A program made the translations under genes and the position numbers. Below, piece after piece: positions 41,419-45,598 of a DNA stretch of 64,000 bases. Source of the DNA: Tsukamurella ocularis (GTDB lineage Bacteria > Actinomycetota > Actinomycetes > Mycobacteriales > Mycobacteriaceae); contig NZ_JANUCJ010000004.1 of NCBI RefSeq assembly GCF_024807615.1, positions 248,001 through 312,000 of the forward strand. Reading direction: 5' to 3'. The notes beneath the pieces were generated by a model. That model saw only the letters and a list, made by a program, of their open reading frames with translations, did no database searches and was not told the DNA's origin. Position 1 is the stretch's first letter; each line of letters opens with the position of its first letter.

Positions 41419-42596
41419 TGTCGCCCGGCTGGACCGTCATCGACGGCATCGGATCGCTCGTCACCAACGACCCCGAGGCGGGGGAGGGGCGGCTCGGGCT
41501 GATCCGCGACGCCGCCGTCGTCATCGGCGACGGTGCCGTCCAGTGGGTCGGCGCGTCGGCCCGCGTCCCCGACGGCGCCGCTGGTGCGCGCATCGACGTC
41601 GACGGCCGCGCAGTGCTGCCGGGATTCGTGGACAGCCACTCGCACACTGTCTTCGGCGGCGACCGGGCGGAGGAGTTCGCGGCCCGGATGACCGGAGCCG
41701 CGTACGGCGCCGGCGGCATCCGCACCACGATCGCCGCGACCCGCGCGGCCTCCGACGAGGCGTTGTCGGCGAACGCCGCCCGGCTCGCGGCCGAGGCGCG
41801 GGCGCAGGGCACGACCACGCTGGAGATCAAGACCGGGTACGGCCAGACGGTGCGCGACGAGTCGCGCAGCCTCGACGTCGCGTCGGGGGTGTCCGAGGAG
41901 GTGACGCTGCTCGCCGCGCACGTCGCGCCGCCCGAGTACGCAGGGCGGCAGGACGATTACGTCGCGATGGTGATGGACGAGATGATTCCGGCGTGCGCGG
42001 CGCGCGCTAAGTGGATCGACGTCTTCTGCGAGGAGGGCGCTTTCACGGAGGAGCAGTCCCGGGCGGTGCTGACGGCGGGCATGGCTGCGGGGCTGGTGCC
42101 GCGTGTGCACGGCAACCAGCTCTCCTACGGCGCGGGCGTGCGCCTCGCCGTGGAACTGGGCGCCGCGTCCGTGGACCACGTCACGTACACCACCGACGCC
42201 GACGTCGAGGCCCTCGCCGGCGGCAGCACCGTCGCCACGCTGCTGCCGGGCGCGGACTTCAGCACGCGCAACAAGTACCCCGACGCGCGGGCTCTGCTCG
42301 ACGCGGGCGTGACGGTCGCCCTGGCGGCGGACTGCAACCCGGGCACGAGCTACACCACGAGCATCCCGTTCTGCATCGCGCTCGCCGTGCGGGAGATGCA
42401 CATGAGCCCCGACGAGGCGGTGTGGGCCGCGACCGCCGGCGGCGCTGCCGCGTTGCGGCGCACCGATGTCGGCGCGCTCCGCGTCGGCATGCGGGCCGAC
42501 CTGACGGTGCTCGACGCCCCGTCGCACCTGCATCTGGCCTACCGGCCCGGCGTGCCACTGGTGTCCCGGGTGTTCTCGGCCGGAGTCGAGCGATGA
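41418..42596 (+). CDS. hutI: Imidazolonepropionase
   Basis: A 392-residue amidohydrolase that opens the imidazolone ring to formiminoglutamate. Metal-site marks are [13 protein letters not shown] (HxH), the His in [12 protein letters not shown], the His in [10 protein letters not shown] and the Asp in [10 protein letters not shown]. The start ATG overlaps the hutU stop by one base, and its own stop overlaps hutG as ATGA. Confidence 0.95.
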
Positions 42597-43525
42597 CGGA
42601 CCGGGCACCGTCGGCCTGGACGGGACGCGACGACGGTCCCGGCCGGGAGCACCTTCGCTGGCACTCGGCGATGGCATCCGGGCCGGTCCCGGGCGCGACC
42701 GCGCTGATCGGCTTCGCCAGCGATGCCGGCGTGGTGCGCAACCTCGGGCGGCCCGGCGCCGCCGCGGGCCCGGCCGCGCTGCGTGGCGCCCTCGGAACGC
42801 TCGCGCTCGCTGCGAATCTGGAGGTCACGGACCTCGGCGACGTGGTCGTGACCGGCGACGACGACCTCGAGGCGGGACAGGCACGGCTCGGCGCGGCGGT
42901 GACGTCCGTGCTCGACGACGGTGGCCTCCCCGTCGTCCTCGGCGGCGGCCACGAGGTCGCCTACGGCAGCTACCTGGGCATCGCGGACTCGCGCGCCGTC
43001 GCCGACGGCGCGCGCCTCGGCGTCCTGAACCTGGACGCGCACTTCGATCTTCGCGCCGCGCCGCGGCCCAGCTCCGGGACCCCGTTCCGGCAGATGGCGC
43101 TCGCCGAGGACGCCGCGGGGCGGCGGCTGGACTACGCCGTCGTGGGCATCTCGCAGCCGGGCAACACCCGCGCGCTGTTCGACGAGGCCGAGCGCCTCGG
43201 CGTGCGCTACCTCCTCGACGACGAGTGCGGCGTGCTGTCGATGCCCGCCGTGGAGCGGTTCGTGCAGGAGTTCCTCGGCGGGATCGACGCGCTGTACCTA
43301 ACCATCGACCTCGACGTGCTGCCGGCGGCCGTCGCCCCCGGCGTCTCCGCGCCTGCGGGCCTGGGTGTTCCGCTCGAGGTGATCTCGCGGGTGTGCGATG
43401 TGGCGGCGGCGAGCGGCAAGCTCCGCCTTCTCGATATTGCCGAGCTCAACCCGTCCCTGGACGTCGACAACCGCACGGCTCGCACGGCGGCCCGACTCAT
43501 CCATCGCATCGTCACCCGCCGCTGA
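42593..43525 (+). CDS. hutG: Formimidoylglutamase
   Basis: A 310-residue ureohydrolase (arginase fold) that hydrolyses N-formimidoyl-glutamate to glutamate and formamide. The binuclear Mn ligands are seen in [14 protein letters not shown] and [10 protein letters not shown] pathway ending with this enzyme needs no separate formiminoglutamate deiminase. ATGA overlap couples it to hutI. A hairpin (43543-43584) and the palindrome-rich region follow its stop. Confidence 0.93.
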
Positions 43526-43542
43526 GAGCGGGCGTTCAGCGA

Positions 43543-43584
43543 GCTGTCGCGCTCCGTGCTGGTGCGGTGGTCGATCGCGACAGC
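43543..43584. terminator. Hairpin after hutG (copy A leader)
   Basis: GCTGTCGCG (43543-43551) and CGCGACAGC (43576-43584) are exact complements with a 24-nt loop, just past the hutG stop. It could end hutG transcription; it also abuts the first palindrome. Confidence 0.45.
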
Positions 43585-43603
43585 CATGCGACGCGCGCAT
43601 GGC
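43583..43603. repeat. Palindrome 1 (type I, copy A)
   Basis: Arms GCCATGCG and CGCATGGC, loop ACGCG. Core ATGCGACGCGCGCAT at 43586-43600. Confidence 0.7.
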
Positions 43604-43634
43604 GTGAAAGGTACTGTTCAGAGGCTGTTTCACT

Positions 43635-43669
43635 GAGTGAGGCTATGTGCCAGGCGCATAGCCTCACTC
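43635..43669. repeat. Palindrome 2 (type II, copy A)
   Basis: Perfect 13-bp arms GAGTGAGGCTATG and CATAGCCTCACTC, 9-nt loop. Core ATGTGCCAGGCGCAT at 43645-43659, exactly 59 bp after the core of palindrome 1. Confidence 0.75.
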
Positions 43670-43864
43670 GCGCGTGTCGCGGATCTCGCCCGCAGCGGTA
43701 GTCGTCCCCCGCGCCGCACCGATTCCCCCGTACGGCGTTTCGTCCCCCGCCGCACGACGCGCGTCCGGTGGGGGCTCGGCCGTCCCCTGCGCGGCGCGGA
43801 TTCGCCATCGAACGCCGCCTCTCCCACGCTGAACGCCGGGTTTCCCTGACGTACGCCTGCTCGC

Positions 43865-43884
43865 GCGAGGCGGCGGCGCCTCGC
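43865..43884. repeat. GC hairpin leading copy B
   Basis: GCGAGGCG and CGCCTCGC, exact 8-bp arms with a 4-nt loop, 10 bp before palindrome 3. Counterpart in position to the hairpin before palindrome 1. Confidence 0.5.
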
Positions 43885-43894
43885 CGCAGACGTA

Positions 43895-43923
43895 TGGGGC
43901 CATGCGCCGCGCGCATGGCCCCA
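43895..43923. repeat. Palindrome 3 (type I, copy B)
   Basis: Perfect 13-bp arms TGGGGCCATGCGC and GCGCATGGCCCCA around the 3-nt loop CGC. Core ATGCGCCGCGCGCAT at 43902-43916. The strongest stem in the window. Confidence 0.78.
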
Positions 43924-43957
43924 CCGCTGATTCACGCCTCTCACCGGCGAAGACGTA

Positions 43958-43978
43958 GGTATGTGCCGTGCGCATACC
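43958..43978. repeat. Palindrome 4 (type II, copy B)
   Basis: GGTATGTGC and GCGCATACC, 8 of 9 paired plus one T-G, loop CGT. Core ATGTGCCGTGCGCAT at 43961-43975, again exactly 59 bp after the preceding type-I core. Confidence 0.72.
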
Positions 43979-44062
43979 GATCGGCAGCGACGACCGGTGC
44001 CGCCGAAGCGCCGCAACCGCCGTGCCCCGCTCCGCCGCGCCCTCCGGGCCGAGGCCGCCGGC

Positions 44063-45598
44063 TCAGGCCAGCTCGCCCGCGACCTGCTCCGCGGCGGCCA
44101 CGAGCGAGCCGGAAGCGGCGAGCTCGACGACGGCCTCGATCTCCGGGGCGAGGTAGCGGTCCGTACCGGGACCCTCGACGCGGCTGCGGATGAGATCGCG
44201 GACGGCGCCGGTCGCGGCGGCGGGCTGCAGCGGCGCGCGCATGTCGATGGCACGGGCCGCGGTCAGCGCCTCGATCGCCAGCACACGGCTGAGGCCGTCG
44301 ATCGCGCGACGCAGCTTCCGCGCGCCGGACCAACCCATCGAGACGTGGTCCTCCTGCATCGCGGAGGAGGGGATCGAGTCCACCGACGACGGTGCCGCGA
44401 GCCGCTTGAGCTCGGAGACGATCGCCGCCTGCGTGTACTGCGCGATCATGTGGCCCGAGTCGACGCCGGGATCGTCCGCGAGGAACGGGTTCAGCCCGTG
44501 GTTGCGTGCCTTGTCCAAGAACCGGTCCGTGCGCCGCTCGCTCATGGATGCCACGTCGGCGGCGACGATGGCGAGGAAGTCGAGCACGTAGGCGACGGGT
44601 GCGCCGTGGAAGTTGCCGTTCGACTCCACCCGGCCGTCGAGGGTGATGACGGGGTTGTCCACCGCGGCGGCCAGCTCGTACCCGGCCACGGTCTCGGCGT
44701 GCGCGACGGTGTCGCGGGCGGCGCCGGTGACAATCGGGGCGCAGCGCAGCGAGTAGGCGTCCTGCACCACGGTGGTGTCCTCGCGGTGGCTCGCGACGAT
44801 CGGTGAGCCGTCGAGCAGGCGCGTCATGTTCGCGGCCGCTACGGCCTGGCCGGGCTGCGGCCGCAGGGCCTGCAGGTCGGCGGCGAAGACCCGGTTGGTG
44901 CCCATGAGGCCCTCCACGCTCATCGCCGCGGTGATATCGGCGAGCTTGAGGAGGCCGCGCAGGTCGTGGCAGGCCATGACCAGCATGCCGAGCATGCCGT
45001 CGGTGCCATTGATGAGGGCGAGGCCCTCCTTCTCCTCCAGCACCACGGGCTCGATGCCGGCGGCGGCCAGGGCCTCCGCGGCGGGGGCGAGCGCACCGTC
45101 GGACGTACGGACCGTGCCCTCGCCGATCACCGCGAGCGCGCAGTGCGCCAGCGGCGCGAGGTCGCCCGAGCAGCCCAGGCTGCCGTACTCGTGCACGACA
45201 GGGGTGATGCCGGCGGTGAGCAGCGCTGCGTAGGCCTTCGCGACCTCGGGGCGGACGCCGGTGCGGGCGGTGGCCAGCGTCGAGAGGCGCAGCAGCATGA
45301 GGCCGCGGATCACCTCGCGCTCGACCTCGGGCCCGGAGCCGGCGGCATGCGAGCGGATCAGGCTGCGCTGCAACTGCTTGCGCAGCTCGGTAGGAATGTG
45401 CCGGGTGGCGAGCGCGCCGAAGCCGGTGGAGACGCCGTAGACGGGCTCCGGGCTGTCGGCGAGCGCGCGGATGTGCGCGCGGGTCGCGGCCATCGCGTCC
45501 AGCGACTCCTGCGACAGCTCCACGGCGGCGCCTTCGCGGGCGACCCGTAGGACGTCCTCGGGGCTGACGGGGCCGAGGCCGACGGTGACGGTGCTCAT
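44063..45598 (-). CDS. hutH: Histidine ammonia-lyase with a Cys-Ser-Gly MIO triad
   Basis: A 511-residue HAL that deaminates histidine to urocanate. The electrophilic MIO group normally forms from Ala-Ser-Gly; here the loop reads YGSLGCSGDLAPLAHC, giving C143-S144-G145. The catalytic Ser is kept, and from memory CSG occurs in other actinobacterial HutH, so activity is expected. Other family parts (VYGVSTGFGALA, INGTDGML, QEDHVSMGW) are intact. Its ATG overlaps the permease stop (TGATG); it is convergent with hutG, separated by the palindrome region. Confidence 0.94.
   Translation of the reverse strand: MSTVTVGLGPVSPEDVLRVAREGAAVELSQESLDAMAATRAHIRALADSPEPVYGVSTGFGALATRHIPTELRKQLQRSLIRSHAAGSGPEVEREVIRGLMLLRLSTLATARTGVRPEVAKAYAALLTAGITPVVHEYGSLGCSGDLAPLAHCALAVIGEGTVRTSDGALAPAAEALAAAGIEPVVLEEKEGLALINGTDGMLGMLVMACHDLRGLLKLADITAAMSVEGLMGTNRVFAADLQALRPQPGQAVAAANMTRLLDGSPIVASHREDTTVVQDAYSLRCAPIVTGAARDTVAHAETVAGYELAAAVDNPVITLDGRVESNGNFHGAPVAYVLDFLAIVAADVASMSERRTDRFLDKARNHGLNPFLADDPGVDSGHMIAQYTQAAIVSELKRLAAPSSVDSIPSSAMQEDHVSMGWSGARKLRRAIDGLSRVLAIEALTAARAIDMRAPLQPAAATGAVRDLIRSRVEGPGTDRYLAPEIEAVVELAASGSLVAAAEQVAGELA

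Follow-up and report, generated by a model that had tools for sequence, protein, structure and literature searches.

A directional, genus-limited 3'-end element of paired palindromes in Tsukamurella

Genomes of Tsukamurella harbor a real, genus-limited and directional 3'-end element. It is about 103 bp long and consists of a 25-nt leader, a first palindrome (H1), a directional linker of about 44 nt (CAGKTCAGRGGC..TTTT) and a second palindrome (H2). On balance, we favor the reading that this Tsukamurella-limited element marks the ends of selected transcription units. Its role, as judged from sequence and gene context, is probably that of a terminator or an insulator.

Two copies were found in the window, the whole stretch of 64,000 nucleotides that was analyzed (C4:248001-312000 of a 4.3-Mb Tsukamurella genome, G000). 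They occupy the gap between the convergent genes hutG (+) and hutH (−), the names of which are taken from the initial annotation; hutG ends at 43525 and the stop codon of hutH lies at 44063. Copy 1 starts 36 nt past the stop codon of hutG and copy 2 starts 63 nt past that of hutH. The features are as follows.

42593..43525, plus strand: hutG, Pfam Arginase family; upstream gene of copy 1
43561..43663, plus strand: copy 1, sense to hutG (model match 43561-43667, 81.1 bits; boundaries −25 to about +4)
43561..43585, plus strand: GTNGTCG-type leader of copy 1 (conservation of columns −25 to −1)
43586..43600, plus strand: palindrome H1 of copy 1 (window pattern search and model match)
43614..43630, plus strand: directional linker motif of copy 1, CTGTTCAGAGGC then TGTTT (sequence, family motif)
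43645..43659, plus strand: palindrome H2 of copy 1, within the long stem 43635-43669
43898..44000, minus strand: copy 2, sense to hutH (model match 43894-44000 on the minus strand, 71.9 bits)
43976..44000, minus strand: leader of copy 2 (column conservation and model match)
43961..43975, minus strand: palindrome H1 of copy 2 (pattern search and model match)
43917..43960, minus strand: linker of copy 2, with the motif on the minus strand (motif alignment and model match)
43902..43916, minus strand: palindrome H2 of copy 2, within the stem 43895-43923 (pattern search and model match)
44063..45598, minus strand: hutH, Pfam aromatic amino acid lyase; upstream gene of copy 2

The initial annotation had described four palindromes in this gap with a pitch of 59 bp and long complementary arms. 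All four were recovered (43586-43600, 43645-43659, 43902-43916 and 43961-43975), both pairs have a pitch of 59 bp, and the arms are 17 nt long and 94% paired at 43635-43669 and paired in 13/13 positions at 43895-43923. A search of the window for ATGYGNCNNGCRCAT with ≤1 mismatch gave seven matches as compared to 2.03 (sd 1.52, max 6) in 100 shuffles; all seven are readings of the four palindrome places. The two units had been taken for a duplication in the same direction. Scores of a covariance model contradicted this: copy 1 lies on the plus strand behind hutG (81.1 bits vs 18.0 on the minus strand) and copy 2 on the minus strand behind hutH (71.9 bits vs 25.0 on the plus strand). Therefore, the palindrome at 43902 is H2 of copy 2 and that at 43961 is its H1, and the proposed correspondence of type I and type II palindromes across the units is an accident of the core common to both. 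The linkers, described as unlike, share a motif that becomes visible once copy 2 is reversed. The GC hairpins said to lead each unit exist (43543-43584 and 43865-43884, the second on the 3' side of copy 2) and do not belong to the family, as columns −42 to −26 hold little information in 122 copies.

Between copies 1 and 2 (window 43660-43840), we also observed a second dispersed, degenerate repeat of the GTCCCCCRCG..RCGCCGATTCCCCC type. Eight more similar places with 71-81% identity were seen on contig C3 (L002-L008), and this repeat is retained in the hut gap of genome G005.

Alignment of the palindrome pairs brought out the directional linker motif and the leader. A covariance model was trained on 22 copies including both window copies, with the two 6-bp cores as its only paired columns. 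The 100 fetched stretches were those which the model had matched, its 22 training copies among them; 99 of these and the window were searched (L234 was left out). The search yielded 217 matches, the best 150 of which gave 137 separate copies; the dropped rows 151-217 were mostly antisense readings with some weak separate copies. For the statistics on 122 copies, 15 of the 137 were removed, either because their core score was low or because their pitch fell outside 50-66. Among these 122 clear-core copies, drawn from the best 150 of the 217 matches, 119 have a pitch of 58-61 bp (59 bp in 47, 60 bp in 46, 58 bp in 20 and 61 bp in six copies; other values in three). The conserved columns run from position −25 ahead of H1 to roughly +4 past H2, and the profile is flat beyond. 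In the same set, the leader consensus is GG..GTNGTCGYTC..RAAGCS, the palindrome core is ATGCGYNNNRCGCAT with G/C at ±3, and the linker consensus is CAGKTCAGRGGC followed by TTTT about 28-32 nt past H1. A GCG/ACC flank is common at the ends of H1, where it does not lengthen the stem.

The initial annotation had proposed a search for further copies in this genome and in relatives, and these were found with both a pair pattern and the covariance model. The palindrome pattern ATGYGNNNNNCGCAT occurred 22/20 times (forward/reverse) in the whole genome of the window as compared to 0/1 for the pattern read backwards, which is a loose control because it is not itself palindromic. In 15 other Tsukamurella genomes, counts ranged from 3/4 up to 63/63; in 25 genomes of other genera, 0 to 13 per strand were found, some slightly above the loose control. 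The pair pattern with a gap of 34-62 bp was present in 12 of 16 Tsukamurella genomes, and control matches in 0 of 16. With a cut-off of E ≤ 0.01, the covariance model matched 391 times across 14 of the 16 genomes (antisense readings counted in); at this cut-off, G006 and G009 gave zero matches and G007 one weak match. The genome of the window holds at least 11 separate copies. Furthermore, among 151 genomes drawn from the family and searched with stricter filters, nine matched at E ≤ 1e-4, and all nine belong to Tsukamurella, one of 31 genera.

Across the genome collection, the exact pair pattern occurred in 49 stretches, 37 of them from Tsukamurella and none in viral contigs; a viral source was hence rejected. 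The 12 loci from outside Tsukamurella were rejected as members, being without the linker motif by eye and scoring ≤31.9 bits (the weakest accepted copy scores 36.1 bits); they fall within the score range of antisense readings, so that score alone cannot split them from the faintest Tsukamurella matches. In Actinokineospora auranticolor (L088 1995-2175), we observed tandem direct repeats bearing a ATGCGCTCCGCGCAT palindrome at intervals of about 55 bp; the Tsukamurella linker is missing there. The earlier remark that no named family of this form is known agrees with Rfam and with the accessible parts of open PMC papers. In Rfam, the stretch 43300-44200 gave nothing over the gathering cut-off and one sub-threshold match, mir-3116 (20.4 bits vs 65). 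The papers yielded no description of such an element within these parts, and a term search of the T. paurometabola genome paper (PMC3156402) gave no hit for 'palindrom', 'hairpin' or 'intergenic'.

The position of the element relative to genes was analyzed with genes called by an in-house codon model. The window served as its training set, and the model placed the start of hutG at 42671, not 42593. Considering the 137 separate copies from the best 150 of the 217 matches, none was located within a called gene, and 120 had a gene on the same strand upstream. The distance from the stop codon to the element (n = 120) was below 10 nt in 13, 10-90 nt in 91 and above 90 nt in 16 cases, with a median of 38 nt; therefore, the element usually is the first structure past the stop. 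A count of same-direction copies is automatic in convergent gaps, so the useful tests are tandem gaps, the order in two-copy gaps and the nearness in one-copy gaps. Tandem gaps contained 29 sense vs 8 antisense copies (two-sided p = 0.0008; orthologues kept in). In every one of the 22 two-copy convergent gaps, the order was plus then minus, each copy being sense to its own gene. With one copy in a convergent gap, it lay nearer to the sense gene in 31 of 46 cases (p = 0.026). Convergent gaps accounted for 68 of 111 gaps with a copy as compared to 35 of 328 without. A role at the end of the transcript best accounts for where the copies lie and which way they point; among the points that count for it are the 22/22 order in convergent gaps, the 29 vs 8 sense copies in tandem gaps and the 0/137 copies inside genes.

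The 17 of 137 copies lacking a same-strand upstream gene comprise the 8 antisense copies in tandem gaps and 9 in divergent gaps. Four of the divergent-gap copies (L138, L148, L193 and L211) and also L180 appear, from gene spacing, to represent one common locus, where four or five species keep a copy that breaks the 3'-end rule. This locus may include a small gene overlooked by the gene calls, or the copy may act in a 5' leader.

The 120 upstream genes formed 53 clusters, and 26 of these have a copy in at least two species. A Pfam scan of all 53 cluster representatives assigned a family to 50 and none to three; functions were mixed, and a functional regulon was rejected on this ground. Recurrent gene clusters of mixed function indicate that the element is kept behind particular genes and that no single pathway is marked.

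Covariation of the arms, also named in the initial annotation as a property to look for, was observed. Orthologues from 20 clusters showed 102 compensated arm differences in register vs 34-39 in slid registers. Seven or more extra arm pairs were present in 8 H1 and 14 H2 hairpins vs about 0.9 and 1.9 with randomly dealt arms, and these 22 hairpins have 7-11 extra pairs. At the hut locus, the H2 arms of G000 and G014 differ by four pairs changed on both sides with pairing kept, provided that the two are one by descent. Among one-sided arm changes, C-A (158) exceeded sense G-U (68), which counts against an RNA reading; part of this excess stems from the base composition at ±1 and ±4. The arms showed no clear preference for sense G-U.

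Template switching at imperfect palindromes makes arms alike. The complementarity of the arms could hence be a mutational by-product, with selection acting on the core only; we regard this as rather improbable. The base adjoining the core is common to all four half-sites, and its sharing, which agrees with template switching as does the unclear G-U preference, beat within-genome shuffles for all six half-site pairs (z 4.9-6.9; 3.6-5.3 with one copy per cluster); orthologues inflate several z-values, and one-per-cluster figures refer to the column-pair scan, folding energies and half-site sharing. The base is also partly shared with the partner copy across the gap (n = 19, z 2.8). However, sharing weakens at −2 to −5 while the 22 hairpins have 7-11 extra pairs, and REPIN-like cross-pairing of H1 and H2 explains the link equally: either cross-pairing or homogenization by template switching would give the sharing of half-site bases. 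A scan of all column pairs brought out chiefly the −1 half-site positions and linker columns reflecting length shifts. Upon RNA folding, 48 of 122 copies preferred a single long H1-H2 hairpin. The long-range fold given by RNAalifold was discarded as evidence: since every arm belongs to a near-identical palindrome, such a fold is inseparable from hairpins formed locally. Folding energy was likewise rejected as a discriminator of sense and antisense, as shuffles show a like bias.

A further alternative is that ATGCGY-NNN-RCGCAT is read as double strand, i.e., that the palindromes are paired DNA sites for a dimeric DNA-binding protein such as a roadblock, an insulator or a chromosome-organizing factor. 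We consider this possible and less probable than not. The core itself agrees with it: H1 positions 6 and 10 are near-independent (TA 35, CG 29, TG 26, CA 26; n = 122) and deviations within the core are symmetric between the strands (31 keep G-U, 28 are the mirror form). The folding energies also agree with it, sense and antisense differing no more than in shuffles. These three observations and the unclear G-U preference of the arms count against a simple RNA hairpin. In the H2 core, however, TG (41) outnumbers CA (21; n = 122), and with one row per gene cluster, TG exceeds CA by 41 vs 20 over both palindromes (p = 0.01), as would be expected of a sense RNA. Moreover, the arms covary outside the core, which a plain protein site does not need, and the direction of the element follows the gene. 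An additional point for protein sites is that copies lie closer to the replication origin than a uniform distribution in G004, G013 and G014 (KS p = 2.2e-5, 0.008 and 0.0016), as determined from the listed places of these three genomes; in G005 and G012, dnaA or the contigs did not permit this test.

In the same three genomes, no listed element was closer to dnaA than roughly a tenth of the half-circle. Additionally, we noticed several open frames of 280 aa in different places (G000:C1:1018084 and 1084353, with others in G004, G005 and G013) that match the DnaA model with one and the same weak score; presumably, they encode an insertion-sequence helper ATPase of the IstB type.

The initial annotation had suggested a structured mobile repeat. 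The element is indeed structured and dispersed, with conserved core and spacing and covarying arms; recent mobility is not supported. Among 1005 same-genome copy pairs, mean identity was 0.56 and the maximum 0.83, 26 of the 53 gene clusters have a copy in at least two species, and Y1_Tnp (PF01797; RAYT, GTAG class) was absent from 16 of 16 Tsukamurella genomes, while the control turned up in 5 of the 14 named genomes. Both copies are present in the hut gap of G000, G014 and G003; G005 has the hutG copy only and G008 the hutH copy only. The hut gaps of G002 and G004 gave no element match at E ≤ 1. By eye, that of G004 holds two plain strong hairpins in the element's stead, and that of G002 no obvious equal-sized replacement. 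From these sequences, the hut-locus pattern suggests that a gene-end module is slowly gained and lost.

The nearest known kind are REP doublets and REPINs. These are paired small palindromes with a 20-100 bp spacer, intergenic and present in many to few copies, that fold separately or as one hairpin (PMC3733652, PMC3116915). An old REP/REPIN-like mobile repeat, with inverted palindromes round a spacer, spread by a transposase since lost or of another type, would account for the dispersed intergenic doublet, presence and absence at the hut locus, and folding of 48/122 copies as one long hairpin as in REPINs; remnants would persist mainly after genes because insertion elsewhere is harmful. We regard such an origin as unlikely. 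The doublet with spacer is common to both, but the pitch of 58-61 bp in 119/122 copies differs from the 71 bp given for the GI REPIN (PMC3116915), and the Tsukamurella element has a conserved leader and a directional linker, sense to the upstream gene. Its strict gene-wise direction also contrasts with REPIN doublets, described as randomly distributed in extragenic space (PMC3116915). No conserved GTAG or CGTC tag adjoins the stems at H1 or H2; the leader motif GTNGTCG occupies columns −19 to −13, and at −17 the share of A is 31% and that of C is 4%. The Y1 transposase is missing in 16/16 genomes; CGTC REPs are said to have no dedicated transposase (PMC3733652). Conserved copies within one genome, a REP/REPIN trait, were not found, the average being 56%. 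The closest same-genome pairs reach 77-83% (L196/L194 and L200), which agrees with a mobile origin.

In G003, the convergent double elements L196 2060-2321 and L194 2076-2335 lie behind different genes and are alike (83% and 73%), and the inter-copy stretch is also alike by eye. This likeness is a hint of copying of the whole double unit.

BIMEs of E. coli are REP mosaics, i.e., palindromes with conserved linkers at gene ends. The Tsukamurella element resembles them in this arrangement and differs, by description, in having other sequences and in being a fixed two-palindrome unit limited to one genus. U-poor intrinsic terminator hairpins occur in actinobacteria. Like intrinsic terminators, the element is a hairpin-forming sequence soon past the stop and commoner in convergent gaps, the window arms being 13-17 nt long, and plain hairpins occupy the hut gap of G004, itself without the element. 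Unlike them, it comprises two palindromes with conserved core, leader and linker at a near-fixed pitch. The stretch 43300-44200 contained 0 terminator-like sites with a U-run, and no T preference past H2 was seen in 122 copies.

Within the favored gene-end reading, both palindromes would act jointly at the transcript end to halt or trim the transcript, and run-through into the convergent neighbor would be prevented. They may act as mRNA hairpins or as paired sites where a candidate dimeric protein blocks polymerase. Direction would be set by the leader and linker because the palindromes are symmetric. Counted against this reading are the 17/137 copies without a same-strand upstream gene, the missing U-run site, the one-copy bias of 31/46, ordinary gene ends without the element, the unmatched genomes G006 and G009, the G002 hut gap without replacement and the H1 GCG/ACC flanks.

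To our knowledge, it is not firmly established how actinobacteria, in which U-rich terminators are scarce, end their transcripts. More tentatively, the element may be a new kind of bipartite, directional, genus-limited gene-end signal read by a putative Tsukamurella factor, with half-sites, partly including those of the convergent partner, evolving in concert. Paired palindromes covary here across many loci without the transposase linked to GTAG REPs. As a directional, multi-copy gene-end element that is present or absent between sister species at one locus, it makes the question testable by 3'-end mapping.
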